DNA of 64,000 bases, taken from contig NC_134677.1 of assembly GCF_024713945.1 (NCBI RefSeq), positions 1,057,001-1,121,000 of the forward strand, given 5' to 3'. The notes beneath the pieces are model-generated. The model was not told where the DNA came from and made no database searches. It was given only the letters and a program-made list of their open reading frames with translations. This DNA comes from Dermatophagoides farinae (Eukaryota > Arthropoda > Arachnida > Sarcoptiformes > Pyroglyphidae). The translations under genes were made by a program, and so were the position numbers. Positions 12,101 through 49,715 of the stretch are shown piece by piece. The stretch's first letter is position 1, and every line of letters starts with the position of its first letter.

Positions 12101-12862
12101 CTCTATGTAGTTTTCACAGCATTAACAAATTTTTGTCGTTTATTTTCTGACGGTTTTCTGTGAAAATTTAATGTGAAAAAAAAACAAAAAAACAAACAAA
12201 CGAATCCGTGAAATTTTTTTTCAAACCAAAAAATCAATGTGAATACAATGTTACCATTAGAGATAATAAAAAAAAAAATTCATCATTATTCTGTTGTTGT
12301 TTACAAATACGAGAAAAAAAAATTCCAAATTCAATTTTTTTTTCGTTATTCTTTTCATTTTGAAGTTTTGATCAAAATTGGATTATAGAATACAAAAAAT
12401 AAAATTCTTTAAATATCTAAATTGACGACTGGTGTACCATACCAATTTGGTTCCAATGCATATACCACAAGCATCACATTTTTTTTTTTGATCCATCTGT
12501 AATTCACTGAAAAAAAACTGAAATGAAATAAAATTCTAGCTGTTTTTAATAATATCTAATAAGATTATTACAAGTTATTTTTTTCCTTTTGATTGAAATA
12601 ATAAATTTTTTTTTTGTTATTAATCTACAACAAAAACTACAAACTTTTTGAATTTTTTTTCAGTGCAAAAAAAGAAAAGATTATCATTCTCGTCCAAAAT
12701 TCTGTGAAATAAGAAAGAAAAATGTACTAATATTGACTAGAAATGTAATAAATGTATATGATGTGATAGTCACGCCGTTACCGAGCTGAAATCCTGATGG
12801 TCGATTTAATTGAATATTTGTTATTGTTTCAAACTAATTTCAAATGATGAGAAATAAATTAA
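9190..12862. repeat. Segmental duplication, copy 2
   Basis: Near-identical to 3021-6713. This copy continues without a break into exons 2 and 1 of receptor gene A1, so it is the ancestral arrangement at its right edge. From 9190 to 12683 I see no gene: only poly-T tracts, GA, GT, GTT and GATGAT repeats. Small open frames within it (for example 10095-10427) recur in copy 1 and consist of Ile/Met/Cys runs from trinucleotide repeats. Confidence 0.9.
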
Positions 12863-14093
12863 CAGTAAAAAAATACACAAATTCGCAATATCTTACCTTG
12901 AATAATTGATAATTATGAAAAAATTTCCTTTCACATGTCGACGACAATGTTAAACATTTACGTTGTAATCGCAATATTTTCACATTATTCTGTTTAATCA
13001 TATTGCAACCAATGATCAATACTGATAATGACATAAAATGTGCCTGTGTTCCCGCAATATACAGTGATAGAAATATAAAATTCTGTTCTGTCATCAAGAT
13101 CAGATAAACTAAATATGTTATTAAAACCGTTATTAAAGTGAAAATGACCGATATATAACGTTTTAATTGTTGGTTATAATCATGAATTTCACGTTGTAAC
13201 ATAGCAAATGATTGATAATAATTTCCAATTATTTTTTCTAATAAAAATTGACGAGAATTTCGATGAATTCTCTGTTTACGCTCATAACGTACTAATTGTT
13301 CATAAAATTGTTGAAATGCACGACCTCGTGATTTTTGTCGCAAATTAATATAATATTGGGACATAAATATAATCGATGACATATGATATAAGCCTTTGAA
13401 TTATTAATAATTATTCGAGATGAATCGATTAATGTGTACACTTACCTCCCATTACATTAATTCCGAATAGTGGGAAGATAAATATCCAGATAAATGTCCA
13501 GAATATTGATATTTGCCATGATGAATTTTGTATAGCCATTGTTATTATACCTAAAAGAAACAATATGCCAATGATTGATGATCCTATGCGTACCAAAGAA
13601 AATATACGATCTCTAATCAAAGCATATTTGTTGGAATCTCTTGTGGTCAATTTACGATATCTTCGATGTTGCATTGGTAATATAAAATAGTACTGTTGAT
13701 AATATCTAGATGATGCATAAAAACCATTCAATAGACCATTTATTGTCCATATGATGAATGCAGTCATCAGATAATGTAATCCTTCGTTGGGAAATAGTCT
13801 AATCATTGCTTGATAAAATCGATAACTTTTAATCCATTCAAATTGTTCAATATAAATAAAAGCCATAACCATAACTGATATGAATGGGACGAAAAAAATT
13901 GGATGATGATGTGGTGGATTCATTATCTTGCCAATTGGTTTCTTATCGATTGGATAATTATTTTCAATGATTTGTTTTTGCATTAATTCATCATAAAAAA
14001 AATGTAAAAAAATTGATTATGAAATTTCCGATAATAATTGAATTTCATCAATTTTTTCCACAAATTTATCTCTAAATCGAGAATGGCATTCAT
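12684..14093 (-). pseudogene. Receptor A1, subfamily A (frameshift in exon 1)
   Basis: Three exons by splice-site reading: 13446-14093, 12897-13393, 12684-12833. Exon phases match all other A genes (exon 1 ends one base into a Gly codon before GTAAG; exon 2 ends in phase 0 after Leu-Phe-Lys). Exon 1 has a 1-nt deletion in a homopolymer: only eight A at 13995-14002 where the frame needs nine, so the reading frame is lost after about 34 codons and an in-frame stop follows. The rest of the gene is clean, so this is either a young pseudogene or a sequencing error in a homopolymer. If the frame were continuous the protein would be about 431 residues. A conserved upstream block lies at about 14144-14171. 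Confidence 0.7.
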
Positions 14094-14946
14094 CGTTGTT
14101 GTTGTTTTTCTCACCAAGTGATGATACTTGATGATGATGGTGATGATTGTTCATCAACCGAATGCAGATATGGAATTGTTTTGTTTTATGGACAAAAAAA
14201 GAATATTCATTTTTTTTATTGTTTCAGATTTAATATTGCAATTCACACGGAAACACTGTTCAGGTGTGAGTTTTTCAACGGAAAAAATTATCCTGAAAAT
14301 CTCATTAAATTTATTGCTTTACATTAGGTTTTATTTTTCTTCATTTCGATAATAATAATATCATTGACAGCTACGATAAAAATATTATTGATTTCAAATT
14401 GCAATCAAATTATGTGCCATAATGGTTCTAATAATGATGATGATAATAGAAAAAATAAAAAATCATAAAACGTTGTCATAAATTGATTCAAAATAAAACC
14501 AATAATTGTTGTAATGGATGATCGTTTTTTGGGATGATTTAAAAAAAAAATTTTTTTGCCAATAACAATCGTCAGTCAAGTTGTTGTGAAATGGGAAAGA
14601 AAAATTGACGGTGATGAATGTATACCGTTAACCTGCTCGAAATCCATTTAACTTTTTTTTTATTTTTCAAACGAAAAATCATGTGAATACAATGTTTCCA
14701 ATGGAGAAAAAAAAATTTCACAATAAAAATTTCATCATTATTCTGTATTTGTTTACAAATACGAAAAAAAAATCAAATTCAATTTTTTTTCGTTTTTCTT
14801 TTCGCTTTGATCCCTCTGTAATTCACCGAAAAAAATAAAATGAAATGAAATTCTAGCTGTTTATAATATAATAATGTCTAATAAAATTATTTACAACAAC
14901 GTACAAACTTTTGGAATTTTTTTTCAGTTCAAAAAAGAAAAGATCA
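14094..14946. other. Spacer A1-A2 with decayed subfamily-B last exon
   Basis: Next to A1 it carries the upstream block shared by A genes (14144-14171) and a second shared block around 14255-14285 (gtgagtttttcaac). At about 14571-14650 is a fossil of a subfamily-B exon 3 read on the minus strand: the TATACATTCATCACC (Tyr-Thr-Phe-Ile-Thr) core and the terminal Gln-Gln-Leu-Asp-stop codons survive, but an internal deletion destroys the frame. Nothing else coding is visible. Confidence 0.6.
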
Positions 14947-16342
14947 TCATACTTGTCCAAAATTCTGTGAAATAAGAAAGAAAAATGTACTAATATTGAC
15001 TAGAAATGTAACAAATGTATATGATGTGATAATCACGCCGTTTCCGAGCTCAAAACCTGATGGTTGATTTATTTGGATACTTGTTATTGTTTCAAACTAA
15101 TTTCAAATAATGAGAAATTGATTAACAGTAAAAAAATAAACTAATTCACCATATCTTACCTTGAATAATTGATAGTTATGAAACAATTTGCGTTTACATG
15201 TCGACGATAATGTTAAACATTTACGTTGTAATCGCAATGTTTTCACGTTATTCTTTTTGATCATATTGCAACCAATGATCAATACTGATAATGTCACAAA
15301 TTCAAAGTATGCTATCACAATGTATAGTGATAGAAATATAATATTCTGTTCTGTCATCAAGATCAGATAAACTAAATATGTTATTGTAACCGTTATTAAA
15401 GTAAAAATGACCGATAGATAGCGTTTTAATTGTTGGCTATAATCACGAATTTCACGTTGTAACATATCAAATGATTGATAATAATGTCCAATCATTTGTA
15501 GTAATAATAATTGATGAAAATTCTGATGAATCCTCTGTTTACGCTCATGACCTAATAATCGTTCATAAAATCGTTGTAATTTACGACCATGTAATTTTTG
15601 TCGCAAATTTAAATAATATTGGGCCAAAAATATAATCGATGATATATGATTTATGCCTTTGAATTAATAATAATTATTAGAAATGAATCGATTAATGTGT
15701 TCTCTTACCTGCAATGACATTAATTGAATAAATTTGCATGATAAATATCCAGATAAATGTCCAGAATATTGATATTTGCCACGAAAAATGTTGTATAGAA
15801 ATTGTTATTACACCTAAAAGAACCAATATGCACATGATTGATGAGCCTATGCGAATCGACGAAAATAAACGATTTCTAATCAGTGTATATTTATTGGAAT
15901 CTTTTGTGTTCAATTCACGATATCTTCGATGTTGTATTGGTAATAGAAAATGGTAATGTTGATAATATCGAGATGATGCATAAAAACCATTTAATAGAGC
16001 ATTTAATGCCCATAAAATCATTGTAACCATCAGATAATGTAATCCTTCGTTTGGAAGTATTTTTATTAATGTTCGATAAAATTGATAATTTTTAATCCAT
16101 TCGAATTGTCCAATATAAATGAATGCCATAATCATAACTGATAGGGATGGAATGAAAAAAATTGGATGATGAGGTGGTGGATTCTTTATCTTGCCAATTG
16201 GATAATTATTTCCAATGATTTGTTTTTGAATCAATTCATCATATTTGAAAATATAAAAAATTTGATTATGCAAAGTTCGATAATAATTGAATTTCATCAA
16301 TTTTTTCCATAATTTTATCTCTAAATCCAGAATAGTATTCAT
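14947..16342 (-). CDS. Receptor A2, gustatory-receptor-like 7TM protein, subfamily A
   Basis: Exons 15709-16342, 15160-15656 and 14947-15096 join to 426 codons. The protein has an N-terminal cytoplasmic-style stretch, seven hydrophobic helices (four in exon 1, two in exon 2, one in exon 3), no signal peptide and a very short C-tail. The conserved TM7 exon, with GNGVIITSYTFVTF and ending SQNFGQV, resembles the 7tm_7/gustatory receptor C-terminus (Ser/Thr-Tyr then an aliphatic helix), and total length is typical of that family. No amine- or peptide-GPCR motifs (DRY, NPxxY) occur. Likely a membrane ligand-gated chemoreceptor; ligand unknown. It lacks six codons after PIG relative to paralogs (a second DKKPIG copy is absent). 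Family assignment is by architecture, not by search. Confidence 0.65.
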
Positions 16343-16397
16343 CGTTGTTGTTCACGTAGTGTGGTGAGACTCGATGATGGGGATGGTGATTGTTTAT

Positions 16398-17159: not shown

Positions 17160-18567
17160 TCATCCAAAACCCTGTGAAATAAGAAAGAAAAATGAACTAA
17201 TATTGACTAGAAATGTAACAAATGTATATGATGTGATAATCACACCGTTTCCGAGCTCAAAACCTGATGGTTGATTCATTTGAATACTTGTTATTGTTTC
17301 AAACTAATTTCAAATAATGAGAAATTGATTAATAGTAAAAAAATAAACCAATTCACCATATCTTACCTTGAATAATTGATAGTTATGAAACAATTTGCGT
17401 TTACATGTCGACGATAATGTTAAACATTTACGTTGTAATCGCAATGTTTTCACGTTATTTTTTTCGATCATATTGCAACCAATGATCAATACTGATAATG
17501 ACATATAATGTGCATTTGCTATCACAATGTATAGTGATAGAAATACACTATTCTGTTCTGTCATCAAGATCAGATAAATTATATATGTTATTGTAACCGT
17601 TATTAAAGTGAAAATGACCGATAGATAACGTTTTAATTGTTGATTAAAATCACGAATTTCACGTTGTAACATAGCAAATGATTGATAATAATATTCAATG
17701 ATTTTTCCAAATAAAAATTGACGCGAATTTTGATGAATCCTCTGTTTGCGCTCATAACGTGATAATTGTCCATAAAATCGTTGTAATGTACGACCGTGTG
17801 ATTTTTGTCGTAAATTTAAATAATATTGGGCCAAAAATATAATCGATGATATATGATATATGGCTTTGAATTACAAATAATTATTAGAAATGAATCTATT
17901 AATTTAATCTCTTACCTGCAACAACATGAATTGAATATAATAGCAAAGTAAATATCCAGGTAAATGACCAGAATATCGATATTTGCCACGTTAAATGTTG
18001 TATCGACATTGTTATTATACCTAAAACAAGCAATATGCACATGATTGATGATCCTATGCGAATCAACGATAATAAACAATTTCTAAACAATGTATATTTA
18101 TTGGAATCATTTGTGTTCAATTCACAATATCTTTGATGTAATATTGGTAATAGAAAATGAAAATGTTGATAATATCGAGATGAGGCATAAAAACCATTAA
18201 ATAGAGCATTTAATGCCCATAAAATCGCTGTAACCATCAGATAATTTATTCCATCCTTGGGAAGTAGTCCAATATATGCTCGGTCAAATTGGTAATTTTT
18301 AACCCATTCGAATAGATACATATAACTATATGCAATAAACATAACCACTACTAATGGGATGAAAAAAATTGGATGATGATGTGGTGGATTCATTATCTTG
18401 CCAATTGGTTTCTTATCGATTGGATAATTATTTTCAATGATTTGTTTTTGCAATAATTCATCATAAAAATAAATGTAAAAAAATTGATTATGAAATTTCC
18501 GATAATAATGGAATTTCATCAATTTTTTCCATAATTTTATCTCTAAATCAAGAATGGCATTCATCAT
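17160..18567 (-). CDS. Receptor A3, subfamily A
   Basis: Exons 17916-18567, 17367-17863 and 17160-17303 give 430 codons with no break. Layout as in A2. Helix 1 is more divergent than in its neighbours (FIAYSYMYLFEW). The exon 1/exon 2 junction makes Ala rather than Gly because the acceptor is followed by CC. The C-tail ends early, Gly-Phe-Gly-stop, two codons before the usual position. Upstream it has the full palindrome (18617-18663). Confidence 0.65.
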
Positions 18568-19430: not shown

Positions 19431-19652
19431 GTTTGAAAAGGTTGTAGGTCAAAACCCCGAAAAAAAATTACCCCGAAAACAAAAACGTAGAAAATGGCTT
19501 GTTTCCTTAAACTTTAAAGCTTAAAGAATTATTCAACCAAACTGAATAGAATCAAAGATAAATGAGTGAAGTTTGGATTTAAATTTCAAATTTTAAACGA
19601 ACAAATGGTGATAATTATATAATATAAATGAATAATATAATAATATAATTGC

Positions 19653-21480: not shown

Positions 21481-21500
21481 GACCTACAACCGTTTGAAAA

Positions 21501-21905: not shown

Positions 21906-23319
21906 TCATTCTCGTCCAAAATTCTGTGAAATAAGAAAGAAAAATGAACTAATATTGACTAGAAATGAAACAAATGTATATGATGTGATAGTCACGCCGT
22001 TTCCGAGCTGAAAACCTGATGGTTGATTCATTTGAATACTTGTTATTGTTTCAAACTAATTTCAAATAATGAGAAATAAATTAACAGTGAAAAAAAACAC
22101 AAATTCACAATATCTTACCTTGAATAATGAATAATTACAAATCAATTTCCGTTCACATGTCGATGATAATGTTAAACATTTACGTTGTAATCGCAATGTT
22201 TTTGCGTGGTTCTGTTTGATCATATTGCAACCAATGATCAATACTGATAATGTCACAAATTCAAAGTATGCTATTACAATGTATAGTGATAGAAATATAA
22301 AATTCTGTTTTGTCATCAAGATCAGATAAACGATATATGTTATTGTAACCGTTATTAAAGTGAAAATGACCGATAGATAACGTTTTAATTGTTGGTTATA
22401 ATCATGAATTTCACGTTGTAACAGAGCAAATGATTGATAATAATGTCCAATCATTTTTCCTGTAAATAATTGACGAAAATTTTGGTGAATCATTTGTTTA
22501 CGCTCAAAACGTGATAATCGTTCATAAAATCGTTGTAATGTACGACCATGTGATTTTTGTCGCAAATTTATATAATATTGGGCCATGAATATTATCGATG
22601 ATATATGATATATGCCTTTGAATTAGGAATAATTAATTAGAAATGAATCGATTAATGTCTCTCTTACCTGCAACCCCATTAATACCCCCTATTTGCAGAT
22701 TAAATATCCAAAAAAATATCCAGAATATCGATATTTGCCATAATGATTGTAGAATAGTCATTGTTATTATACCTATAAGAAACATTATACACATGGTTAA
22801 TGTTCCTATACGATTCATTGAAAATACACGATCTCGAATCAATGTATATTTATTGGAATCTTTTGTGGTCAATTCACGATATCTTCGATGTTGTATTGGT
22901 AATATAAAATAGAAATGTTGATAATATCGAGATGATGCATAAAAACCATTCAAAAGACCATTTAATATCCATATAATCATTGTAGTCATTATATAATGTA
23001 ATCCTTCGCTGGGAAATAGTTTAATCATTGCTTGATAAAATTGATAATTTTTAATCCATTCGAATTGTCCAATATAAATAAAAGCCATAATCATAACTAA
23101 TATGGATGGGATGAAAAAAATTGGATGATGATGTGGTGGATTCATTATCTTGCCAATTGGTTTATTATTGATTGGATAATTATTTTCAATGATTTGTTTT
23201 TGCATTAATTCATCATATTTGAAAATATAAAAAAATTGATTATGCAATTTCCGATAATAATCGAATTTCATCAATTTTTTCCATAATTTTATCTCTAAAT
23301 CGAGAATGGCATTCATCAT
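21906..23319 (-). CDS. Receptor A4, subfamily A
   Basis: Exons 22668-23319, 22119-22615, 21906-22055; 432 codons, frame continuous. Four helices in exon 1, two in exon 2 and the TM7 exon ending NFGRE. Two tandem Met codons begin the protein (MMNAILDL). Exon 2 starts its cytoplasmic loop with MAQYYINLRQKSHGR, shared with A5 and A7. The exon 1 donor is GTAAG and the exon 2 donor GTAAG. No defect seen. Confidence 0.68.
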
Positions 23320-24059: not shown

Positions 24060-25475
24060 TCATTCTCGTCCAAAATTCTGTGAAATAAGAAAGAAAAATG
24101 TACTAATATTGACTAGAAATGTAACAAATGTATGTGATGTGATAATCATGCCGTTTCCGAGCTGAAAACCTGATGGTCGATTCAAGTGAATATTTGTTAT
24201 TGTTTCAAACTAATTTCAAATGATGAAAAATAAATTAAAAATAAAAAAAAATACACAAATTCACAATATCTTACCTTGAATAATTGATAATTATGAAAAA
24301 ATTTCCGTTCACATGTCGTCGATAATGTTAAACATTTACGTTGTAATCGCAATATTTTTACGTTATTCTGTTTAATCATATTGCAACCAATAATCAATAC
24401 TGATAACAATACGTAATGTCCATGTACTACCACAATGTATAGTGATAGAAATATAAAATTCTGTTTTGTCATCAAGATCAGATAAACTAAATATGTTATT
24501 AAAACCGTTATTACAGTGAAAATGACCGATAGATAACGTTTTAATTGTTGGTTATAATCATGAATTTCACGTTGTAACATAGCAAATGATTGATAATAAT
24601 GTCCAATCATATGTCGTAAGAATAATTGACTGAACTTTCGATTAATCTTCTCTTTACACTCATAAAGTAATAATCGTTCATAAAATCGTTGTAATGTACG
24701 ACCATGGGATTTTTGTCGCAAATTTATGTAATATTGGGCCATAAATATAATCGATGATATATGATATAAGCCTTTGAATTAGAAATAATAATTAAAAATG
24801 AATTGATTAATTTGTTCTCATACCTGAAATTGAATTAATTGTCCATATTTGCAGAATAACTATCCAGATGAATGTCCAGAATATCGATATTTGCCATGAG
24901 GGTTGTAGTATGGTCATTGTTACTTTACCTAAAAGAAACATTATGCAAATAATGTATGATTCTATGCGAATAATTGAAAATACACGATCTCTAATCAATG
25001 TATATTTATTGGAATCTTTTGTGTTCAATTCACGATATCTACGATGTTGTATTGGTAATATAAAATAGAAATGTTGATAATATCGAGATGATGCATAAAA
25101 ACCATTTGATAGACTATTTAATGTCCATATAATCAATGCAGCCATTAGATAATGTAATCCTTCGCTGGGAAATAGTCTGGTCCATGTTCGATAAAATTGA
25201 TAACTTTTAATCCATTCAAATTGTTTAATGTAAATAAAAGCCATAATCATAACTGATATGAATGGGACGAAAAAAATTGGATGATGATGTGGTGGATTCA
25301 TTATCTTGCCAATTGGTTTCTTATCGATTGGATAATTATTTTCAATGATTTGTTTTTGAATTAATTCATCATATTTGAAAATATAAAAAAATTGATTATG
25401 AAATTTCCGATAATAATCGAATTTCATCAATTTTTTCCATAATTTTATCTCTAAATCGAGAATGGCATTCATCAT
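24060..25475 (-). CDS. Receptor A5, subfamily A (reference copy)
   Basis: Exons 24824-25475, 24275-24771, 24060-24209; 432 residues. Predicted helices: TM1 about 66-84, TM2 106-126, TM3 171-190, TM4 195-216, TM5 298-318, TM6 322-346, TM7 about 402-425. Conserved landmarks: KPIGKIMNPPHHHPIF before TM1, GFYASSRYYQ after TM2, RELNTKDSNKYTLIRDR before TM3, a long basic loop between TM4 and TM5 (residues about 230-295), and IIGCNMIKQNN after TM6. The exon 1 donor is GTATG rather than GTAAG. Loop 230-295 (CKEKINRKFSQLFLRHM) is closest to A7. Seven helices of this spacing with a long loop before TM5 and a TM7-only last exon fit gustatory receptors. Confidence 0.68.
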
Positions 25476-33140: not shown

Positions 33141-34545
33141 TTATTCTCTACCAAAATTCTGTGAAATAAGAAAGAAAAATGTACTAATATTGACCAGAAA
33201 TGTAACAAATGTATATGATGTGATAATCACGCCGTTTCCGAGCTGAAAACCTGATGGTCGATTCAAATTGATGGAAGTTATTGTTTCAAACTAATTTTAA
33301 ATTATGAGAAATTGATTAACAATGAAAAAATACAAGAATTCACAACATTTTACCTTGAATAAATGATAGTTATGAAACAATTTCCGTTCACATGCCGCCG
33401 ATAATGTTAAACATTTACGTTGTAATCGCAATGTTTTCACGTTATTCTGTTTAATCATATTGCAGCCAATGATCAATATTGATAATGCCACATAATGTGA
33501 ATGTGTTACCACAATGAAAAGTAATAGAAATATAAAATTCTGTTTTGTCATTAAGATCAGATAAACTAAATATGTTATTGTAACCGTTATTAAAGTGAAA
33601 ATGACCGATAGATAGCGTTTTAATTGTTGGTTATAATTATGAATTTCACGTTGTAACATAGCAAATGATTGATAATAATGTCCAATCAATTGTAGTAATA
33701 ATAATTGACGCATCTGTTTACTCTGTTTACGTTCATAATGTAATAATCGCCCATAAAATCGTTGTAATGTACGACCATGTGATTTTTGTCGCAAAGTTAA
33801 ATAATATTGGGCCATAAATATAATCGATGAAATATGATATAAACCTTCGAATTAGGAATAATTATTAGAAATGAATTAAACAATGTGTTCTTTTACCTGC
33901 ATTTGCATTTAATGTCCATATTTGCATGATAAATAACCAGATTAATGTCCATAATATTGATATTTGCCATGATGATTGTAGAATAGTCATTGTTATTTTA
34001 CCTAAAAGAAACATTATGCAAATGGTTAATGATTCTATACGAATCATTGAAAATACACGATCTCTAATCAATGTATATTTATTGGAATCTTTTGTGTTCA
34101 ATTCGCGGTATCTTCGATGTTGTATTGGTAATAGAAAATAGAAATCTTGAAAATATCGAGACGATGCATAAAAACCATTCGATAGAGCATTTAATGTCCA
34201 TATAATGAATGCAGCCATCAGATAATGTAATCCTTCGCTGGGAAATAGTCTAATCATTGTCTGATAAAATTGATAATTTTTAACCCATTCAAATTGTCCA
34301 ATATAAGTAAAAGCCATAATCATAACTAATATGGATGGGATGAAAAAAATTGGATGATGATGTGGTGGATTCATTATCTTGCCAATTGGTTTCTTATTGA
34401 TTGGATAATTATTTTGAATAATTTGTTTTTGAATTAATTCATCATATTTGAAAATGTAAAAGAATTGATTATGAAATTTCCGAAAATAGTTGAATTTCAT
34501 CAATTTTTGCCATAAGTTCATCTCTAAATCGAGAATGACATTCAT
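33141..34545 (-). CDS. Receptor A8, subfamily A
   Basis: Exons 33897-34545, 33354-33844, 33141-33290; 429 codons, no defect. Exon 2 is two codons shorter than usual in the loop before TM5 (YERKQSKQMRQLLLLQ). Both donors are GTAAA, weaker than the GTAAG of most copies. The stop is TAA (others use TGA). The upstream block lies at about 34586-34615. Confidence 0.66.
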
Positions 34546-35561: not shown

Positions 35562-37048
35562 TCATCCAAAATTCTGTGAAATAAGAAAGAAAAATGTACT
35601 AATATTCACTAGAAATGTAACAAATGTATATGATGTGATAATCATGCCGTTTTCGAGCTGAAAACCTGATGGTCGATTCAAATGAATACTTGTTATCGTT
35701 TCAAACTAATTTTAAATGATGAGAAATTAATTAACTTTTAAAAAAATAAACAAATTACCTTGACTAATTGATAGTTTTGAAACAATTTCCGTTCACATGC
35801 CGCAGATAATGTTAAACATTTACGTTGTAATCGCAATATTTTTTCGTTATTCTTTTTGATCATATTGCAACCAATGATCAATACTGATAATGTACTATAT
35901 AATGACTGTACTATCAAAATGAAAAGTAATAGAAATATAAAATTCTGTTCTGTCATCAAGATCAAATAAGCAAAATATGTTATTATAAGTGTTATGAAAG
36001 TGAAAATGACCGATATATAACGTTTTAATTGTTGGTTATCATCATGAATTTCACGTTGTAACATAGCAAATGATTGATAATAATGTCCAATCATTTGTCG
36101 TAAGAATAATTGACGAAAATTTTGATGAATCCTCTGTTTACGCTCATAATGTGATAATCGTCCATAAAATAGTTGCAATCTACGACCATGTGATTTTTGT
36201 CGCAAATTTAAATAATACTGGGCCATGAATATAATCGATGATATATGATATAAGCCTTTGAATTAGGAATAATTATTAGAAATGAATCGATTAATGTGTT
36301 CTCTTACCAGCAATTGTATTAAGTGCGAATAATTGCAGAATAATTACCCAGATAAATGTCCACAATATCGATATCTTCCATGATGGTTGTAGAATAAACA
36401 TTGTTATTTTACCTAAAAGAAACATTGTGCAAAGAGCAAATGATATAATGCGAACAAATGAAAATACACGATTTCTAATCAATGTATAATTATTGGAATC
36501 TTTTTTGTTCAATGCACGATATCTTTTATGTTGTATTGGTAATAGAAAATAGAAATGTCGGTAATAGCGAGATGATGAATAAAAACCATTAAATAGACCA
36601 TTTAATGCCCACATAATGAATCCAGCCATCAGATAATGTAATCCTTCGCTGGGAAGTAGTCTAATCATTGCTTGATAAAATTGATAATTTTTAATCCATT
36701 CGAATTGTCCAATATTAATGAATGCCATAATCGTAACTAATGTGGATGGGATGGAAAAAATTGGATTATGATGTGGTGGATTCATTATCTTGCCAATTGG
36801 TTTCTTATCGATGCCATAATCGTAACTAATGTGGATGGGATGGAAAAAATTGGATTATGATGTGGTGGATTCATTATCTTGCCAATTGGTTTCTTATCGA
36901 TTGGATAATTATTTTCAATGATTTGTTTTTGCATTAATTCATCATATTTGAAAATGTAATAAAATTGATTATGAAATTTCCGAAAATAATTGAATTTCAT
37001 CAATTTTTTCCACAAATTTATCTCTAAATCAAGAATGGCATTCATCAT
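35562..37048 (-). pseudogene. Receptor A9, subfamily A, broken by an 89-bp duplication
   Basis: Exons 36308-37048, 35759-36255, 35562-35705. Exon 1 is 741 nt instead of 652 because an 89-bp segment (36722-36810) is repeated perfectly at 36811-36899. 89 is not a multiple of three, so the frame shifts just before TM1 and runs into a stop. Exons 2 and 3 are clean, and the exon 2 donor is GTAAT. The duplicated piece covers the KPIGKIMNPPHH region. The exactness of the two copies means a very recent event or an assembly artefact. Without the second copy the gene would encode about 430 residues. Confidence 0.75.
36722..36899. repeat. Perfect 89-bp direct tandem duplication in A9 exon 1
   Basis: Two identical units, 36722-36810 and 36811-36899, each starting atgccataatcg and ending ggtttcttatcg. 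No other A gene has it. A 3-base overlap (atg/att context) at the junction is the only microhomology I see. Confidence 0.95.
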
Positions 37049-37468
37049 TGCTTTTGTTGTTCGCACAGAGTGGTGATACTTGATGATACTGATTGTTCAT
37101 CAACCGAATGCGGATTTAATTTTCATTGAAAAAGAATGAAGAATATTCATTTTTTTATTGTCATGGATTAAAAAAAAAATTATCCTGAAAATCAAATAAA
37201 ACTTATGACTTCACTTTGAAACTTTTTTTGGTGATTTTTTTTCATTTTTTGTTCATAACAATCGTCAGTCAATTTTTTCAATTGATAAAATTTATTACCA
37301 TATTTGAGTACAGTAAAAAAGAAAATTTGACTGAAGTAACTTCGTGGGGCCATTTTTATTGTTTCTTTTTTAAGTTTATTTTGATATTTCTACAATAAAC
37401 ACAATTACAATTTTGATTTTTCAATTTTTTTCAGTGCAAAAAAATCGTTATTATCGTACAATATGCTG

Positions 37469-37602
37469 TCAAATAAGAAAGAAAAATGTACTAATATTCA
37501 CTAGAAATGTAATAAATGTATATGATGATGTGATAGTCTTGCCGTTTCCGAGTAGAAAACCTGATGGTTGATTCAATTGAATACTAAAGTTATTGTTTCA
37601 TA
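37469..37602 (-). pseudogene. Orphan subfamily-A exon 3 upstream of A9
   Basis: A TM7 exon with an extra in-frame ATC/GAT codon (tgatgatgtg near 37522-37531) and an early TGA (37469-37471) from a Ser codon, so it is a few residues short. There are no matching exons 1-2. It is sister to the orphan at 30115-30382; both are followed by the same intron stub (caagaaatcgcta). Confidence 0.7.
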
Positions 37603-37848
37603 CTAATTTCAAATGATGAAAAATTGATTAACAGTAAAAAAACAATACAAGAAATCGCTACAATAAAAACAAAAATTATTGATCCAAGAAAATCCGATCA
37701 AATTATGTGCAATAATAATTCTAATGATAACAATAATAAAAATGTAAAAAAAATTAAAATCAATAAAAGTTGATAAATCCGTTCAAATAAAACCAGTGAT
37801 TGTCGAAATGAATGATCGTTTTTTTTCAATTCTTGTTCATAACAATTG

Positions 37849-38256
37849 TCAATAAAGTTGTTGTGAAATGAGAAAGAAAAATGAAGTAATATTAAAAGTG
37901 ATGGTGATGAATGTATACGATGTAATAGTGGTGCCGTTTGTTAACCGGAAACCCGTTAGCTGATTCCACAATGTATTTGTTAACGAATCAAACTGTTTTT
38001 TGCATCAATTAATCAATCAATCAATAAATTGGATTAGATTATCATTTTGATTTATACCTTAAAGTTTAAGGCTTAAACAATTGTTGAATGATGAAATTAT
38101 TCTTATATTCACATGATGAATGAACAATAGCAATCATACATTAAATACATTGATAAATAAAACGTTGTTTAGTCATAAACAATAGATATGATGAATATGT
38201 TGTAACCATTGTAGACATTGCAAATATTATCGTTATATAACGTGACAATTGTCGGC
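37849..38256 (-). pseudogene. Subfamily-B receptor remnant: intact exon 3 and part of exon 2
   Basis: 37849-37992 is a complete 144-bp B-type TM7 exon (acceptor CAG, motif GFRLTNGTTITSYTFITIT, stop TGA). 38139-38256 is nearly identical to the central part of B2 exon 2 (44139-44256), encoding RQLSRYITIIFAMSTMV; the 3' part of the exon is eroded (38095-38138) and its 5' part is deleted. From 38257 on, the sequence matches the upstream region of B2 (45383-45520). So this is a B2-like gene that lost exon 1 and half of exon 2 by one deletion. Confidence 0.75.
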
Positions 38257-38640
38257 TAAAAAAAATGATTTTAATTTATTCAAAACACATGCAAAGCAAA
38301 TAAATCAAACCGGATTCTAATCGTTTTGGTTTTCTCATTGTTCATTTTGTAATTTAAAATGAAATGCAAGAAAAAAAATTTTCCATTATGTTTTGTTGAG
38401 TTATTTCAAATTAACAAAAAATGAAAGAAAGAAGAAATAACAAGATAAGAAAATTTTTTTGTTGATCATCATCATCATCAAGATTCACACATGACAGGAT
38501 CACCTTTTCATTATATTTTTTTTTTTAACAAAAATTGATTTTTTTTTGCTATTTTTAAGTTTATTTTAATATTTTTTCAACAAACAAAATTGCATTTTTC
38601 ATTTTCCATTTTTTTTTTCTTTGCAAAAATAAGAAAATCA

Positions 38641-40035
38641 TCATTTTTGTCCAAAATCTTGTGAAATAAGAAAGAAAAATGTACTAATATTGACTAGAAA
38701 TGTAACAAATGTATATGATGTGATTATCATTCCGTTTCCAAGCTGAAAACCAGGTGGTCGATTCAATTGAATACCAGTAATTGTTTCAAACTAATTTCAA
38801 ATGATGAGAAATTGATTAACAGTAAAAAAATAAACAAATTCACCATATCCTACCTTCAATAATTGGTAATTGTGATAGAATTTCCGTTCACATGCCGCCG
38901 ATAATGTTAAACATTTACGTTGTAATCGCAATGCTTTTTCGTTATTCTGTTTAATCATATTGCAGCCAATAATCAAAACTGATAATGTAGCATAATGTGC
39001 CTGTGCTGCCACAATATACAATGGCAGAAATACAAAATTCTGATCTGTCATCAAGATCAGATAAACTAAATATGTTATTAAAGCCGTTATTAAAGTGAAA
39101 ATGACCGATAAATAACGTTTTAATTGTTGGTTATCATCATGAATTTCGCGTTGTAACCTAGCAAATGATTGATAATAATGTCCGATCATTTGTCGTAATA
39201 ATAATTGATGAATCCTCTGTTTACGCTCATAACGTAATAATCGTTCATAAAATCGTTGCAATCTACGACCATGTGATTTTTGTAGCAAATTTAAATAATA
39301 TTGGGCCATGAATATTATCGATGATATATGATATAAGCCTTTGAATCAGAATAATCATTAGAAGTGAATCGATTAATCTGTCTTACCTGCACATGCATTA
39401 ATTTGCCATATTTGTAGAATAACTATCCAGATAAATGTCCAGAATATCGATATTTGCCATAATGATTGTAGAATAGTCATTATTATCTTACCTAAAAGAA
39501 ATATTATGCAAATCATGTATGTTTCTATGCGAATCATTGAAAATACACGATCTCTAATCAATGTATATTTATTGGAATCTTTTATGTTCAATCCGCGAAT
39601 TCTTCGATGTTGTATTGGTAATAGAAAATGAAAATGTTGATAATATTGAGATGATGAATAAAAACCATTTAATAGAGCATTTAATGACCATATAATGCCT
39701 AAGGTCATTATATAATGTAATGCTTTGTTGGGAAATAGTCTAATCCATGTTTGATAAAATTGAAAATTTTCAATCCACTCAAATTGTTCAATCGTAGTAA
39801 AAGCAATAATCATGATTAATATTAATGGGATAAAAAATATTGGATGATGATGTGGTGCTTTCGTTATCTTGCCAATTGGTTTCTTATCGATTGGGCAATT
39901 ATTTTCAATGATTTCTTTTTGCATTAATTCATCATATTTGAAAATGTAAAAAAATTGATTATGAAATTTCCGATAATAATCGAATTTCATCAATTTTTTC
40001 CATAATTTTATCTCTAAATCGAGAATGGCATTCAT
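38641..40035 (-). CDS. Receptor A10, subfamily A
   Basis: Exons 39387-40035, 38854-39338, 38641-38790; 427 codons. Exon 2 lacks four codons in the loop before TM5 (KQRIHQLLLRQM). Residues before TM1 differ (GKITKAPHHHPIF, with Thr-Lys-Ala for Met-Asn-Pro). The C-tail ends FGQK. Its 3' flank (38400-38640) parallels that of A11, and its 5' side runs into the solitary B exon B1 only about 210 bp away. Confidence 0.66.
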
Positions 40036-40247: not shown

Positions 40248-40914
40248 CTGAACATATATGATATGACCATATATGCATAATGCATAGCCAGAATAATGTC
40301 CAAAACAATGATATTCGCCATAATGATTTCAATATTATAATCATAATCATTGCAATTAGAAACAGTTGACCAATCGAAAATATTAGATATCTTGCAATGA
40401 AAAATGACCAATCTCTAATCCATTCATAATGTTTTGAATCCTGTTCATTCAGATTACGCCATTTAACATATTGAATTGGTAATAAAAATTGAAATTGTTC
40501 ATAACGTGTTGATGTGGCATAAAATGCATTCAACAATGTGTTTATTGTACATAAAATTATAGCTGTCATCAGATATGTTAGACCATCAGCTGGAAATAAT
40601 TTTGATAATACATCAAAACAATCATAATCATTAATCCATTTTGGTTGTTTGATCAATATGATCGATGCTAATGTGACCGTAATGTTTATTATGCCCAATA
40701 ATAGATTATGAATGTATGGCCATGGAATTTTACCGAAAGGTTTCATCCGTACAACCTCATCATCATCATCATCATGATGGACATTGAATTTTCGTTGAAT
40801 CAATTCATCATAATAGAAAAGATAAAATATATGATTATGATATCTACGAAAGTAAAAATTTTTCATAAATTTTCTAAATAAAACAATCTCCAAATTCACT
40901 ATTGAATTGATCAT
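40248..40914 (-). pseudogene. B1: solitary exon 1 of a subfamily-B receptor
   Basis: 222 codons matching exon 1 of B2 (start MINSIVNLEIVLF, a run of Asp residues after KFNVHH, then GKIPWPY, four helices, RYEQFQFLLPIQ and ISLFWTLFWL) and ending in a good GTATG donor. No exon 2 or 3 follows: 40036-40247 is the upstream region of A10. The nearest B exons on this strand are the remnants at 37849-38256, beyond A10. The frame is fully open, so decay is recent or the exon is still used. An upstream extension to 41100 is open but is Thr/Lys-rich and unlikely coding. Confidence 0.65.
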
Positions 40915-41343
40915 CATCATGTTATTGTTGTTAAATGTTTTCACCTGTAATGCACAAACAACATTGATGAAATGAACCACTGTTGTTGTTGTTGTTGTTG
41001 TTGTTTTTGTGTTTGTGTTTGTTTTGCGGATCAATTGATTTATACACAATTTTTTCTCTTTGATTTTTTTGTTGTCTATATTATTTTTTTTTATTATCAT
41101 GGTTCCAAACGATATAATCCAATAAAAAGTGAAAAATAAAAAAATTTACGATTGTATCGATTGTTTTTTAAAAAATGAATTTTTTGTTTTCATATGTTTT
41201 CTCACATCAAAATAATGAATGTGTTTTTTTTTGTGTACAAATGTGTTTGTCAGGGCCGGCCCAGGCGCCTGTGCAGACTGTGCACCGCACAAGGCCTCGC
41301 GCTACTGAAGGCCTCGCGCTGCCGGAGGCAGCGCGGTTCCGGA

Positions 41344-43702: not shown

Positions 43703-45169
43703 TTATGTGTTGTTTATGGTTGTCAATTGTTTTGTAGCAATAATATTCTGTGATATTAGAAAGAAAAATGTACTAATATTCACTATTACAGTGATGAATG
43801 TATATGATGTAATTATAACGCCATTTGTTAATTGAAAACCCAATGGTCTATCAAGCAATGTGGTGGTCAATGCATCAAACTATCAAATTAGTATAGTTTA
43901 ATATATATATAAAGAAAATTAATTGACATTGTTAAATTACACTGTTATATTCAAAAAAAAAAATAATAATAATTACCTTCAATAATTGATGAGTAGTGAA
44001 AATTTTCTTCTCACAAATGGACAGCATTAGACATTTTTGTTTTAAACGTAATAATTTTTCATTATTATTACGTACTTTAGCACAGCCAATAATCATTACA
44101 GATAATGTATTGATCTGTGCATGAGCAATCATACAATAAAGACATTGATAAATGAAACGTTGTTTAGTCATAAACAATAGATATGATGAATATGTTGTAA
44201 CCATTGTTGACATTGCAAATATTATCGTTATATAACGTGACAATTGTCGACTATGTTCATCAATATCTTTTTGTAATCTTTCAAACATACGATGATGATG
44301 TTCAAAAAAATGTTTTAACAATGTTATCGATGTTATATGATTATTATTATAGGCAAACAATAATAAACGTTGCATTATTCTTAAAAATGATTGTTGTCGT
44401 AGATTTAGATAATATTGTAATATAAATATGAATGATGTAATATGCAAAAATGCTTCATTTTTTTTTGTATGAAAAAGAAAATTTTTTGAAATTAAAATCA
44501 ATAATGAATATTTAAAATCATACCTGAACCTGTATGATATGTCCAAATATACATGATAAATGGCCAAAATATTGTCCAAAATATTGAAATTTTCCATAAT
44601 GATTTCAACATTATCATCATAATCATTCCATTTGCAAATAATGTACCGATCGATATTATTGCACATCGTGCTATAGAGAATACATAATCTTTGTTCATTT
44701 CATAACGACCGGAATCTTGTTTATTCAAATTACGCCATCGTTCATCGTTTATTGGTAATAAGAATTGAAATTGTTCATAACGTGTTGATGTTGCATAAAA
44801 TGCATTCATCATATTGTTTATTGTACACATAACAATTGATGCTGATAAATATTTGATACCTTCTGTGGGAAACATTCGTGTTAATATACACAATGAAACA
44901 TAATTTCGTATCCATTGTGGTTGTTGTATCATCAGAATAGAGACCAATGTGACCAAAATTGATGTTAATGCCAATAGAATTTTATTCTTATGTGGACGTA
45001 CAATTCTGCCCATAGGTTTCACATGAACGTTATTGATTAACATGAATTTTCGATGAATTAATTCATCATAATAAAATAGATATAAAATCTGATTATGAAT
45101 AGTTCGATAATACGTATTTTGCATTAGATTTTTCCATATTTTTATTTCAAAATTCAATATTGTAGCCAT
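43703..45169 (-). CDS. Receptor B2, the only complete subfamily-B gene
   Basis: Exons 44524-45169, 43977-44452, 43703-43879; 432 codons, frame continuous, same intron positions and phases as subfamily A, so the two subfamilies share ancestry. The sequence is strongly diverged: MATILNFEIKIW start, KPMGRIVRP, FYATSTRYEQFQFLLPI, loop HHHRMFERLQKDIDEH, and TM7 exon GFQLTNGVIITSYTFITVIV. The C-tail is longer than in A genes (ends TTINNT). Its introns are short and A/T rich. Start chosen at the Met aligned with A genes; an upstream in-frame Met at 45226 gives an unlikely Thr/Lys-rich extension. Probably a chemoreceptor with different ligand specificity. Confidence 0.65.
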
Positions 45170-46007: not shown

Positions 46008-47402
46008 CTATGAAATAAGAAAGAAAAAAGTACTAATATTGAATAGAAATGTAACAAATGTATATGATGTGATAATCACGCCGTTTCCGAGCTGAAAACC
46101 TGATGGTTGATTCAATTGAATACTAGTTATTGTTTCAAACTAATTTCAAATGATGAAAAATTGATTAACAGTAAAAAAAGCAGAAATTCACAATATCTTA
46201 CCTTAAATAATTGATAATTATGAATAAATTTTCGTTCACATGTCGACGATAATGTTAAACATTTACGTTGTAATCCCAATATTTTTACGTTATTCTGTTT
46301 AATCATATTGCAACCAATGATCAATATTGATAATGCCACATAATGTGCATGTGCACCAATAATGTATAGTGATAGAAATATAAAATTTTGTTCTGTCATC
46401 AAAATCAGATAAACTAAATATGTTATTAAAACCGTTATTAAAGTGAAAATGACAGATAGATAACGATTTAATTGTTGGTTATAATCACGAATTTCACGTT
46501 GTAACATAGCAAATGATTGATAATGATGTCCAATTATTTGTCGGAAAAATAATTCACGAAAATTTTGATGAATCCTCTCTTTACGCTCATAACGTAATAA
46601 TCGTCCATAAAATCGTTGTAATCTACGAACATATGATTTTTGTCGCAAATTTATATAATATTGGGCCATAAATATAATCAATGATACATGATATAAGCCT
46701 TTAAATTAAGAATAATTATTAGAATTGAATCGATTAATGTGTTTTCTTACCTGCAATTGAATTAATTGCCCATAATTGAATAATAAATAACCAGATAAAT
46801 GTCCAGAATATTGATATTTGCCACGATGATTGTAGAATAGTCATTGTTATATTAGCTAAAAGAAACACTATGCAAATGGTTAATGTTTCTAAACGAATCA
46901 ATGAAAAAAAATGATTTCTAATCGATGCATATTTATTGGAATCTTTTGTGTTCAATTCACGATATTTTTGATGTTGTATTGGTAATAGAAAATAGAAATG
47001 TTGATAATATCGAGATGATGTATAAAAACCATTCAATAGACCATTTATTGACCATATGAAGAATCCAGTCATCAGATACTGTAATCCTTCGTTGGGAAAT
47101 AGTCTAATCATTGTTTGATAAAATTTATAATTTTTACTCCATTCAAATTGTTCAATATAAATAAAAGCTATAACCATAATTGATATGAATGGGATGACAA
47201 AAATTGGATGATGATGTGGTGGATTCATTATCTTGCCAATTGGTTTCTTATCGATTGGATAGTTATTTGCTATGATTTGTTTTTGAATTAATTCATCATA
47301 TTTAAAAAGGTAAAAAAATTGATTATGAAATTTCCGATAATAATTGAATTTCATCAATTTTTTCCATAAATTTATCTCTAAATCGAGAATGGCATTCATC
47401 AT
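46008..47402 (-). CDS. Receptor A11, subfamily A
   Basis: Exons 46751-47402, 46202-46698, 46008-46139; 426 codons. The last exon is truncated by a TAG in place of the usual Gln codon after LIS, so the C-tail is six residues shorter but TM7 is complete; probably still functional. Exon 2 has SYVRRLQRFYGR in the loop before TM5. The upstream block lies at about 47446-47473. Confidence 0.66.
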
Positions 47403-48302
47403 TTTTGTTGTTGTTCACACAGAGGGGTGATATTTGATAATAATGGTGATTGTTCATCAACCGAATGCAGTTATGAAATTGATTTTCATTGAAAAAAAAG
47501 AATGAAGAATATTCATTTTTTTATTGTCATGGAATAAAGATTCTACTTCACACACGAACACAATGTTTAGATGTGAGTTTTTCAATAGAAAAAATTATCC
47601 TGAAAATCTCATAAAATTTATGACTACTTTGAAAAGGTTTTGTTTTTCTTTCTATCAATAATAATGATATTGTTGACTGCCTACAATGAAAACAAAAAAT
47701 TATTGATTCAAAATTTTGTCCAAATTATGTGCAATAATGATTCTAATGATGACAATAATAGAAATAAAAAAATAAAAATCAATAAAACGTTGATAAATTG
47801 ATTCAAATAAAACCAGTGATTGTTGAAATGAATTTAAAATACTTGATACTAATTGATTGATAGATAGATAGATGCAATCAATTTACAAATTCCAAAAACG
47901 TTCCATATTTGTTGTTATCATGTGTTTTTTTAATGTTTTGTTTTCATCAATTCTGACCATTTATTTGGCTGGCAATTTCAAAATTGTCTTCATCATGGAG
48001 AATGCTGATGATGATTAGAATAGATTAGTTTGCAATACCGCTGATGATATGAATATTTTGTTTTGTTTTGTTTTTCTACACAAATCATCACTTTTTTTCA
48101 TCACTTTTATTCTTTGTTTTGAGGTATCCAGAGAATTTTCGAAAAATGATAAAATTTATTACCATATTTGAAAACAGTAAAAGAGGAAAATTCGATTAAA
48201 ATAACTTCGTGATGTCATTGTTATTGTTTAAAGAATATTTCTACAATAAACACAATTACAATTTTGATTTTTCAATTTTTTTCAGTGCAAAATAAATCAT
48301 AA
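47403..48302. other. Spacer A11-A12
   Basis: A11 upstream blocks (47446-47473; 47570-47583), then GATA repeats (47859-47872) and a block (47875-48240) matching 26730-27130 of the A5-A6 spacer (gctgatgatgattagaatagattagtttgcaa). No exon. Confidence 0.5.
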
Positions 48303-49715
48303 TTAACGTATGATATGTTGTGAAATAAGAAAGAAAAATGTACTAATATTCACTATAAGTGTAACAAATGTATATGATGTAATAGTCATGCCGTTTTCTA
48401 GCTCAAAACCTGATGGTCGATTTAAATTGATGCCAGTTATTGTTTCAAACTAATTTTAAATGATGATAAATTGATTAACAATTGAAAAAAGTTCACAAAT
48501 TCCCAATATCTAACCTTGAATAATTGATTATCATGAAAAAATTTCCGTTCACATGTCGACGATAATGTTAAACATTTACGTTGTAATCGCAATGTTTTCA
48601 CGTTATTCTGTTTAATCATATTGCAACCAATGATCAATACTGATAATGTCACAAAATGTGCCTGTAATACCCCAATGAAAAGTAATAGAAATATAAAATT
48701 CTGTTCTGTCATCAAGATCAGATAAGCAAAATATGTAATTGTAACCGTTATGAAAGCGAAAATGACCGATAGATAACGATTTAACTGTTGATTATAATCA
48801 TGAATTTTACGTTGTAACATAGCAAATGATTGATAATAATGTCCAATCATATGTCTTAACAATAATTGACGAAAATTTTGATGAATCCTCTGTTTACGCT
48901 CATAACGTAATAATCGTCCATAAAATTGTTGCAATCTACGACCATGTGATTTTTGTAGCAAATTTAAATAATAATGGGCCATAAATATTATCGATGTTAT
49001 ATGATATAAACCTTTGAATTTGGAATAATTATTAGAAATGAATAGATTAATATGTTCTCTTACCTGCAGTTGCATTAAGTGCGAATAGTTGCAGGATAAA
49101 TACCCAGCTAAATGTCCAGAATATTGATATTTGCCATAATGATTTTAGAATAATCATTGTTATTTTACCTAAAAGAAACATTATGTAAAGAACTAATGAT
49201 CCTGTGCGAACCGATGAAAATACACGATTTCTAATCAATGCATATTTATTGGAATCTTTTGTGTTCAATTCACGATATCTTCGATGTTGTATTGGTAATA
49301 GAAAATAGAAATGTTGATAATATCGAGATGATGCATAAAAACCATTCAATAGACCATTTAATGTCCATATAATCTCTGAGGTCATTATATAATGTAATCC
49401 TTCTTTGGGAAATAGTCTAATCATTGTTTGATAAAATTGATAATTTTTAATCCATTAAAATTGTTCAATATAAATAAAAGCCATAATCATAACTAATATG
49501 GATGGTATGAAAAAAATTGGATGATGATGTGGTGGATTCATTATCTTGCCAATTGGTTTCTTATCGATTGGACAATTATTTTCAATGATTTGTTTTTGAA
49601 TTAATTCATCATATTTGAAAATGTAAAATAATTGATTATGAAATTTTCGAAAATAGTTGAATTTCATCAACTTTTTCCACAAATTTATCTCTAAATCAAG
49701 TATGGCATTCATCAT
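48303..49715 (-). pseudogene. Receptor A12, subfamily A, nonsense codon in exon 1
   Basis: Exons 49064-49715, 48515-49011, 48303-48449, all in the standard phases. A TAA at 49455-49457 replaces the Glu codon in the conserved GQFEW/EQFEW motif just after TM1, stopping translation at about residue 86. No other defect is seen; exon 2 uses a GTTAG donor. The single change suggests a very recent loss, a polymorphism or a base-call error. Otherwise it would make 431 residues. It is the outermost array gene on this side. Confidence 0.75.

Follow-up and report, generated by a model that had tools for sequence, protein, structure and literature searches.

The window, 64,000 nucleotides of Dermatophagoides farinae DNA (contig NC_134677.1, positions 1,057,001 to 1,121,000, forward strand), carries an array of related seven-segment protein genes which probably arose through the recent, local expansion of a highly divergent gustatory receptor (GR)-like family, most likely of the seven-transmembrane ion channel (7TMIC) type (GR/OR/Grl). 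Its members are very plausible candidate GR-like proteins on the strength of their architecture and are not filed here as proven GRs.

Organisation of the array

The existence of the array was confirmed and its description is sound. Gene modelling revealed 12 subfamily-A loci, all on the minus strand, between a first ATG at 49715 and a last stop at 12684, which is exactly the one-strand array of about 37 kb of the original prediction; plus-strand members were excluded, none being found among the family matches within the window (Table 1). The three-exon frames are intact in 9 of the 12 A loci, and the intact window genes encode 426-432 residues. Subfamily-A proteins share 69-84% identity with each other and 40-45% with B2. 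Frames of about 215 and of 158-165 codons reappear at successive loci and the median dN/dS of the 9 intact A genes is 0.57 (36 pairs), which argues that the array is not due to chance. Subfamily B turned out to be smaller than the three or more loci initially announced: one intact gene (B2), with fragments alongside, namely exon 1 of B1, an exon-2 scrap and a B-like TM7 exon, the two latter being separated from B1 by A10.

Table 1. Loci and exon remnants of the array (window positions; all on the minus strand).
Feature	Span (strand)	Exons	State
A12	48303..49715 (-)	exon 1 49064-49715, exon 2 48515-49011, exon 3 48306-48449	broken: one in-frame stop, codon 87
A11	46008..47402 (-)	exon 1 46751-47402, exon 2 46202-46698, exon 3 46011-46139	intact, 426 aa
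B2	43703..45169 (-)	exon 1 44524-45169, exon 2 43977-44452, exon 3 43706-43879	intact, 432 aa; sole intact B gene found in window
B1	40248..40923 (-)	exon 1 only	additional in-frame ATG at 41100
A10	38641..40035 (-)	exon 1 39387-40035, exon 2 38854-39338, exon 3 38644-38790	intact, 427 aa; between B1 exon 1 and B fragments
B exon-2 fragment	38129..38258 (-)		96% identity to B2 across 130 nt
B-like TM7 exon	about 37850..37985 (-)		without neighbours
Stray A-type TM7 exon	37400..37642 (-)		damaged; between A9 and B-like TM7 exon
A9	35562..37048 (-)	exon 1 36308-37048, exon 2 35759-36255, exon 3 35565-35705	broken: 89-nt tandem duplication, exon 1
A8	33141..34545 (-)	exon 1 33897-34545, exon 2 33354-33844, exon 3 33144-33290	intact, 429 aa
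A7	30548..31950 (-)	exon 1 31302-31950, exon 2 30753-31249, exon 3 30551-30688	intact, 428 aa
Stray A-type TM7 exon	30084..30242 (-)		between A6 and A7
A6	28137..29660 (-)	exon 1 29009-29660, exon 2 28350-28846, exon 3 28140-28286	intact, 432 aa; intron 1 of 162 nt
A5	24060..25475 (-)	exon 1 24824-25475, exon 2 24275-24771, exon 3 24063-24209	intact, 432 aa
A4	21906..23319 (-)	exon 1 22668-23319, exon 2 22119-22615, exon 3 21909-22055	intact, 432 aa; weak 7tm_7 match (E = 0.31)
A3	17160..18567 (-)	exon 1 17916-18567, exon 2 17367-17863, exon 3 17163-17303	intact, 430 aa; weak 7tm_7 match (E = 0.12)
A2	14947..16342 (-)	exon 1 15709-16342, exon 2 15160-15656, exon 3 14950-15096	intact, 426 aa
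A1	12684..14093 (-)	exon 1 13446-14093 (frameshift), exon 2 12897-13393, exon 3 12687-12833	broken
Stray copy of A1 TM7 exon	6504..6713 (-)		at end of a 3.7-kb segmental duplication, 96.5% identical: 3021-6713 / 9190-12862

As had been claimed, the intron positions and phases are identical and TM7 lies on a separate exon: two predicted GT-AG introns are common to the 12 A loci and B2, the phase being assigned from position in the frame-broken A1 and A9. Intron 1 is in phase 1 and measures 48-162 nt, a length of 52 nt being shared by 7 of the 9 intact A genes. Intron 2, in phase 0 and 53-97 nt long, is followed by a TM7 exon of 43-58 codons. Tandem retrocopies were rejected because introns are retained. 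Relatives were detected at four further places in the same 62-Mb genome, giving about 27 loci in total, broken ones included; the locus at C3:4065183-4066191 is known as a match alone and C1a, C1h, C1i, C4a and C4b are partly modelled. A phase-0 intron placed immediately ahead of the TM7 exon, given as a GR criterion in PMC9998090, is predicted in 13 window loci and in 6 of the 7 modelled relatives (C1c-C1g and C4c), the only exception being C10, in which the intron before TM7 is absent. The same junction was seen in C4a. Elsewhere in this genome, of 7 loci resembling group-2 allergens, 3 were translated and 1 was compared with known proteins; its best matches were Der p 2 and Der f 2, from which it differs.

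Relationship to known receptor families

Fourteen family proteins (C1f and C1g being incomplete at TM7) and two consensus sequences were scanned against Pfam, with A6, A8, A10 and the broken loci outside the scan. None of these 16 sequences reached the curated 7tm_7 cut-off of 26.6 bits and 14 of them yielded no 7tm_7 row. A3 (E = 0.12, 12.1 bits, residues 72-371) and A4 (E = 0.31, 10.7 bits, residues 74-368) gave weak matches, colinear with the profile across most of the protein length and far below the cut-off. No 7tm_7 match appeared in reversed (0/6) or locally shuffled (0/10) controls, nor in C-terminal pieces scanned alone (0/10). Since shuffled controls yield chance matches to other Pfam families with E values of 0.007-0.3, the A3 and A4 matches are only suggestive. 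In an exon-by-exon search, the 7tm_7 cut-off was passed by two exons of conventional GRs from this genome, which served as positive controls.

A family-profile search of solved PDB structures (alignments A1 and A2) returned short helical matches, with best E values of 0.41 and 0.04 (potassium channel), judged to be chance because they cover one or few helices. In the library control, L001, a conventional GR, retrieved Gr64a (E = 1e-4) when its exons were joined, so that GRs are within reach of this library; the first exon of L002 gave no match. The comparison by hhalign of an eight-sequence family alignment with L001 and L002, both 7tm_7 proteins, and with the weak candidate L004 (L074) found nothing (probabilities of 0.2-0.4%); the GPCR of the window, taken as a control, likewise gave 0.2-0.4%, thus this comparison does not discriminate. 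Structure prediction, which had been proposed as a check, supplied two AlphaFold models (pLDDT 51.1 and 47.1) too poor to be used for a fold verdict, and for the first one (pLDDT 51.1) Foldseek and VIA-align returned no meaningful match; the fact that they listed no GR or OR is not evidence against the fold.

The hydropathy profile displays seven hydrophobic segments and positive-inside counts place the N-terminus inside: the loops 1-63, 129-163, 237-297 and 348-400 are net positive whereas the intervening ones are near-neutral. By length, hydropathy and charge counts, the window genes thus agree with the GR definition of about 400-450 residues, seven TM helices and an intracellular N-terminus. 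With arthropod GRs (7tm_7; BmGr9, Gr64a) the family shares its size of about 430 residues, the seven segments, the N-inside charge, the phase-0 intron adjoining the TM7 exon and a TM7 stretch which may keep the TYhhhhhQF spacing. As described for BmGr9 in PMC11100771, the S3-S4 connection is short and S4/S5 long, within the same helix pattern; the same source gives 28 residues for the S3-S4 connection of MhOr5. In contrast with GRs, the array family stays under the Pfam cut-off, has [TS][FY]x5[ND][IM] in place of TYhhhhhQF and shows a conserved GFxLxN(G/N)-like sequence leading into TM7; the pocket walls of BmGr9 are S2-S5, whereas S5 is conserved and S6 variable in the array family.

The strict TYhhhhhQF motif was found in none of the 24 TM7 rows, 21 of which read far enough. 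The dipeptide [TS][FY] occupies one fixed position in 22 of the 24, and [TS][FY]x5[ND][IM], which has the GR-motif spacing, occurs in 18 of the 21 rows read far enough, this pattern having been defined after viewing the rows, most of which are close paralogues. It is missing in C4a and C4c, which are devoid of [TS][FY], and in C1c, which is one residue out of step. The original prediction designated TSYTFVTF as the TM7 motif lacking the Gln-Phe ending: the strict QF ending is indeed absent, but TSYTFVTF is probably the wrong counterpart, because TFVTFLVNI (T-F-x5-N-I), starting three residues after its start, fits the TYhhhhhQF spacing. A counterpart eight residues after TSYTFVTF was rejected, the +3 register fitting better. 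The register proposed for TFVTFLVNI from sequence is unsure because the conserved Phe lies 12 residues from the motif T in the array family versus 17 between the first Phe and TY in Orco. Variant TM7 motifs have been accepted in some insect Grs, according to PMC9998090.

Insect Grl proteins offer a comparable case: PMC9998090 describes them as having GR-like length and topology almost without sequence signature, and Grl36a and Grl43a as keeping the phase-0 intron before TM7 with variant TM7 motifs. The Grl proteins were recognised via predicted folds (PMC9998090), whereas the array family is known from sequence and is a recent multi-copy expansion. Insect ORs (7tm_6, Orco) share the proposed channel architecture, but no 7tm_6 row was obtained in the 16 scanned sequences. 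The resemblance to Tetranychus urticae, for which PMC6275457 and PMC7738191 cite 689 GRs in all, 447 of them intact, lies in lineage-specific expansion in a mite.

The GR assignment of the original prediction consequently holds at the level of architecture (size, seven segments, N-inside charge, BmGr9-like helix pattern, phase-0 intron, apparent motif spacing and paralogue variation) and falls short of the 7tm_7 cut-off. The lack of significant 7tm_7 or 7tm_6 similarity, of the strict TYhhhhhQF and of a fold match would also be expected of a tandem-expanded seven-helix family of the mite lineage that has no kinship with GR/OR channels, such as one of GPCR-like proteins or transporters that had so far escaped recognition. 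This explanation should be considered unlikely: the N-inside charge pattern is opposite to that of GPCRs, the pre-TM7 intron is of GR type, the TM7 stretch has apparent GR spacing and no Pfam match other than 7tm_7 was seen to span most of a family protein. Furthermore, Pfam recognises the neighbouring rhodopsin-like GPCR at 56413-58437 (7tm_1, 171.6 bits), but identifies no such protein in the array, no 7tm_1 row being present in the 16 family sequences scanned. A cluster of rhodopsin-type GPCRs was rejected on topology and on the absent profile match.

Paralogue variation and a putative mechanism

Changes between paralogues are concentrated in helices 2, 3, 4 and 6. The entropy is 0.81 in S2, S3, outer S4 and outer S6 versus 0.34 in S1, inner S4, S5 and S7 (P = 3e-7), a contrast equalled by 0.5% of circular shifts, and dN/dS reaches 0.72 (bootstrap 0.53-0.99) in the pocket set versus 0.40 (0.27-0.59) in the pore/anchor set. 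In a GR-like channel, each protein would be one of the four subunits of a ligand-gated cation channel in which the outer helices would form a ligand pocket differing from copy to copy, while helix 7, together with the inner portions of helices 4 to 7, would provide the common pore and anchor. The copies were probably generated by unequal crossing-over, some of them having then decayed, as is usual for chemoreceptors.

GR-derived proteins working outside external chemosensation, such as channels that sense internal nutrients or that signal in reproduction or in the cuticle, could also carry altered pore letters, which would fit an altered function. We regard this possibility as quite improbable since numerous similar tandem copies, variable in the presumed pocket helices, are better explained by ligand diversification. 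That the cluster is decaying with little function left, mostly as relics that recent duplication and gene conversion maintain, is hardly credible: 3 of the 12 A loci are broken, B1 is reduced to exon 1, several exons are stray and codon periodicity is weak (0.133, 0.100 and 0.149 at positions 1-3), but the other A loci and B2 are intact and the bootstrap interval of the pore/anchor dN/dS stays below 0.6.

Returning to the GR-like channel, we tentatively propose, as a reading of real but not preponderant likelihood, that a hidden 7TMIC lineage, diverged beyond the reach of Pfam and of single-sequence comparison, may constitute most of the chemoreceptor set of this astigmatid mite (about 27 loci versus two places over the 7tm_7 cut-off in the exon-by-exon search). 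In its pore helix, Asn (or Asp) and Ile/Met would stand at the positions of the Gln-Phe/Leu of GRs and Orco, and gating or ion selection may differ, or these proteins may be ligand-binding subunits in need of a conserved partner, like ORs with Orco.

Significance for chemosensation in mites

Scabies mites respond to host odour. The receptor-like family described here would have gone unnoticed in routine counts for mites to which one to four GR-like genes are attributed: PMC12105342 mentions four KEGG-labelled GR-like genes in Dermatophagoides pteronyssinus, and PMC4930577 one named GR-like protein and several 'sweet-taste receptor-like' ones in Sarcoptes scabiei. If the family is GR-like and common to astigmatid mites, the low published counts would be artefacts produced by profile cut-offs, and candidate genes would become available from the array for testing host, food and conspecific sensing in parasitic and dust mites. 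Through its altered TM7 letters, the family would also allow a test of what the GR gate actually requires, and the chemical senses of such mites may be richer than reported.

Array organization and gene models

The original prediction of a one-strand array was confirmed by gene models of the 12 A loci and B2, whose rebuilt limits match the predicted coordinates. A three-exon gene is present in twelve copies (A1-A12) on the minus strand, with a second subfamily, represented by one intact member (B2) and pieces of other B genes, amid them. As long frames repeat at successive loci, the array is more than chance. Where intact, exon 1 (211-217 codons) encodes the N-terminus through the first half of transmembrane segment 4, exon 2 (158-165 codons) the remainder of that segment, followed by an intracellular part and segments 5 and 6, and exon 3 (43-58 codons) segment 7 (TM7). 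In the predicted models of 13 loci, intron 1 (phase 1, 48-162 nt) and intron 2 (phase 0, 53-97 nt) are both GT-AG; most A genes have introns of 52 nt and 62-65 nt, respectively.

Nine of the 12 A loci are intact (A2-A8, A10 and A11), A1 being broken by a frameshift, A9 by an 89-nt tandem duplication and A12 by an in-frame stop. At least three B loci had been proposed; B genes are indeed present but only B2 is intact, the rest being exon 1 of B1, an exon-2 scrap (96% identity to B2) and a B-like TM7 exon. A10 sits between B1 exon 1 and the B scraps, and stretches of its 3' flank match the 3' flank of A11 and the sequence preceding B2 at 87% and 94% identity, which probably reflects copying and later trimming of an A-B unit. 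Identity is 69-84% between A proteins and 40-45% between A and B2. Over the 36 pairs of intact A genes, median dN/dS was 0.57 and median dS 0.20. The difference rates at codon positions 1, 2 and 3 (0.133, 0.100 and 0.149) point to fast evolution under mild overall constraint.

Features of the window, its flanks and related loci (unprefixed positions refer to the window)
Feature	Position	Strand	Remarks
Segmental duplication, left copy	3021-6713		direct, 3.7 kb, 96.5% identical to right copy; holds stray TM7 exon
Segmental duplication, right copy	9190-12862		ends within last exon of A1
398-codon frame	7603-8799	plus	retroelement integrase-like by eye; no Pfam match at 0.001
A/B array	12684-49715	minus
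piggyBac-like transposase pieces	19644-20791	plus	between A3 and A4, differing frames; 19644-20012 and 20307-20627 match Pfam DDE_Tnp_1_7
Dispersed repeat	41179-41487, 50016-50344		adjoins array genes
Same repeat, second cluster	L068, about 970-1200	reverse	seems to interrupt C1a (translation read by eye)
Short direct and inverted repeats	42180-42780		~0.6 kb between B1 and B2, GGTCGTGTTAGTTTGGAC type, read by eye
GABP-alpha gene	51393-52379		flanking ordinary gene; Ets and GABP-alpha domains
Rhodopsin-like GPCR	56413-58437		flanking ordinary gene
MED24-like match	61360-62031		flanking; below curated cut-off
Second cluster	C1:2845786-2863010		at least 8 genes by our reading (C1a, C1c-C1i) and unassigned TM7 exon C1x
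C1x	L069, about 8370-8510	minus	Thr-Tyr at motif place; no in-frame splice site found by eye
C4 genes	C4:598000-603561		three family genes
C10 gene	C10:2795159-2796462		one family gene
C3 match	C3:4065183-4066191		one match to family
L074	G000:C3:3893501-3898000, 1716-3098	minus	single-exon membrane protein, 460 residues

Relatives elsewhere in the genome

The genome (62.4 Mb, 22 contigs; the window is C1:1057001-1121000) was searched with B2, A5, C10 and C1e as queries, large-family counts being lower bounds. About 27 loci were counted as a lower bound, broken copies and the window's own (12 of subfamily A, two or three of B) included. Seven relatives were modelled (C1c, C1d, C1e, C1f, C1g, C4c and C10), intactness being mostly checked inside the window. 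A phase-0 intron precedes the TM7 exon in six of them, and C4a shows this junction too; C10 lacks an intron at this position and carries one within TM7, as C1f and C1g, whose models end at that point, also seem to do. Intron 1 is kept in C1f and C1g and missing from the other five. Thirteen columns are invariant across eight diverse members, including Thr-Tyr in S5 and G-F-x-L directly ahead of TM7. In a tree of 17 proteins, the nine A genes cluster as a single clade, B2 is their sister, and the chromosomal neighbours A2, A3 and A4 group together; the deeper order, on long branches, is unsure.

Proposed gustatory-receptor assignment

Fourteen real proteins (A6, A8 and A10 left out) and two consensus sequences were scanned against Pfam. 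The gustatory-receptor (GR) profile 7tm_7 was matched by residues 72-371 of A3 (profile 39-315, E 0.12) and residues 74-368 of A4 (profile 40-312, E 0.31), by none of the other 14 sequences, and by none of 6 reversed and 10 locally shuffled controls; the controls matched other families by composition with E down to 0.007. As A3 and A4 are 75% identical, their matches count as one suggestive observation. Two conventional GR exons from this genome exceed the 7tm_7 cut-off of 26.6 bits (L001, 32.3 bits; L002, 30.1 bits) and L001 retrieves Gr64a from the PDB, indicating that the failure of the array family is not a tool failure. C-terminal-piece scans, PDB profile searches and hhalign of the family gave no GR similarity. 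Another membrane protein, L074, scored a weak 16.4 bits for 7tm_7 in the genome search yet gave no row in the Pfam scan; it is possibly another divergent GR-like gene.

TSYTFVTF had been taken as the counterpart of the insect TYhhhhhQF signature; a strict QF ending is indeed lacking in the 21 rows that extend to it, but TFVTFLVNI is probably the better-spaced register. When 24 TM7 rows are indexed on their conserved G-F, 22 (all but C4a and C4c) carry [TS][FY] at an identical position. The pattern [TS][FY]x5[ND][IM], defined after the rows were seen, occurs in 18 of the 21 read far enough for the full motif, 14 of the 24 rows being window paralogues or their scraps; examples are TFVTFLVNI (most A genes), TFIVVFYNM (C1d), SYIYIFHNI (C10) and TYFTIMSNI (C1x). 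Strict TYx5QF was found in none of these 21. The spacing equals that of the GR motif; rows with the pattern carry Asn/Asp where the GR motif has Gln and Ile/Met where it has Phe, and array genes have Phe in place of Tyr. The corresponding BmGr9 residues are described as pore-lining, lipid-contact, gate-ring and plug residues (PMC11100771). In Orco, TY lies 17 residues past the first Phe while the family T lies 12 past the conserved Phe; this offset, the after-the-fact pattern and the large share of window paralogues all count against the register, which is unsure.

Family-averaged charges place loops 1-63, 129-163, 237-297 and 348-400 inside and the intervening loops outside, a pattern read as N-inside, as in GR/OR channels and opposite to that of GPCRs. 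A first AlphaFold model was poor (pLDDT 51.1, pTM 0.29); its helices (~65-81, 103-138, 151-188, 193-248, 260-313, 317-375 and 403-426) were renumbered without intron residues and adjacent pieces merged by hand (S4 across intron residues). Their layout is alike in pattern, no fold comparison being implied, to that given for BmGr9 (S1 52-79, S2 90-135, S3 141-176, S4 178-229, S5 287-339, S6 345-389, S7b 424-444, with an S3-S4 loop of one residue; PMC11100771). Foldseek and VIA-align with this poor model found no meaningful match, and a second model (exons 2-3 of A4; pLDDT 47.1) was no better. Since the family falls below the profile cut-off and lacks the strict TM7 motif, the two defining features tested, it is not filed as GR; what stands of the assignment is a partly supported candidate GR-like 7TM channel family.

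Variation among paralogues and chemoreception in mites

The pocket helix set (S2, S3, outer S4 and outer S6) was taken from insect ORs. Among nine A proteins, mean entropy was 0.81 bits in this set and 0.34 in S1, inner S4, S5 and S7 (P=3e-7, or 1.2e-5 with whole S4 in the variable set; equalled by 0.46% of circular mask shifts), the helix limits and S4 split having been chosen after viewing hydropathy. dN/dS was 0.72 (bootstrap 0.53-0.99) in the pocket set and 0.40 (0.27-0.59) in inner S4, S5, inner S6 and S7, and no region of the A genes had dN/dS significantly above 1. The BmGr9 pocket is described as walled by S2-S5 (PMC11100771), in partial agreement with the array, where S5 is conserved and S6 variable. 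In the simplest mechanism, the genes would encode candidate channel subunits with ligand pockets differing per copy and a common pore and anchor.

Published accounts give D. pteronyssinus four KEGG-labelled GR-like proteins (PMC12105342). For S. scabiei, 13 chemoreception proteins are predicted, one of them named GR-like, yet this mite responds to host odour (PMC4930577). T. urticae has 689 GRs and two trombidid mites have 42 and 105 (PMC6275457); another account compares 447 intact T. urticae GRs with two in A. lycopersici (PMC7738191). An astigmatid GR array was not reported in the titles or abstract beginnings of the matches listed, from a search mostly outside subscription papers. The interest of the array lies in a chemoreceptor-like family overlooked by standard profiles.
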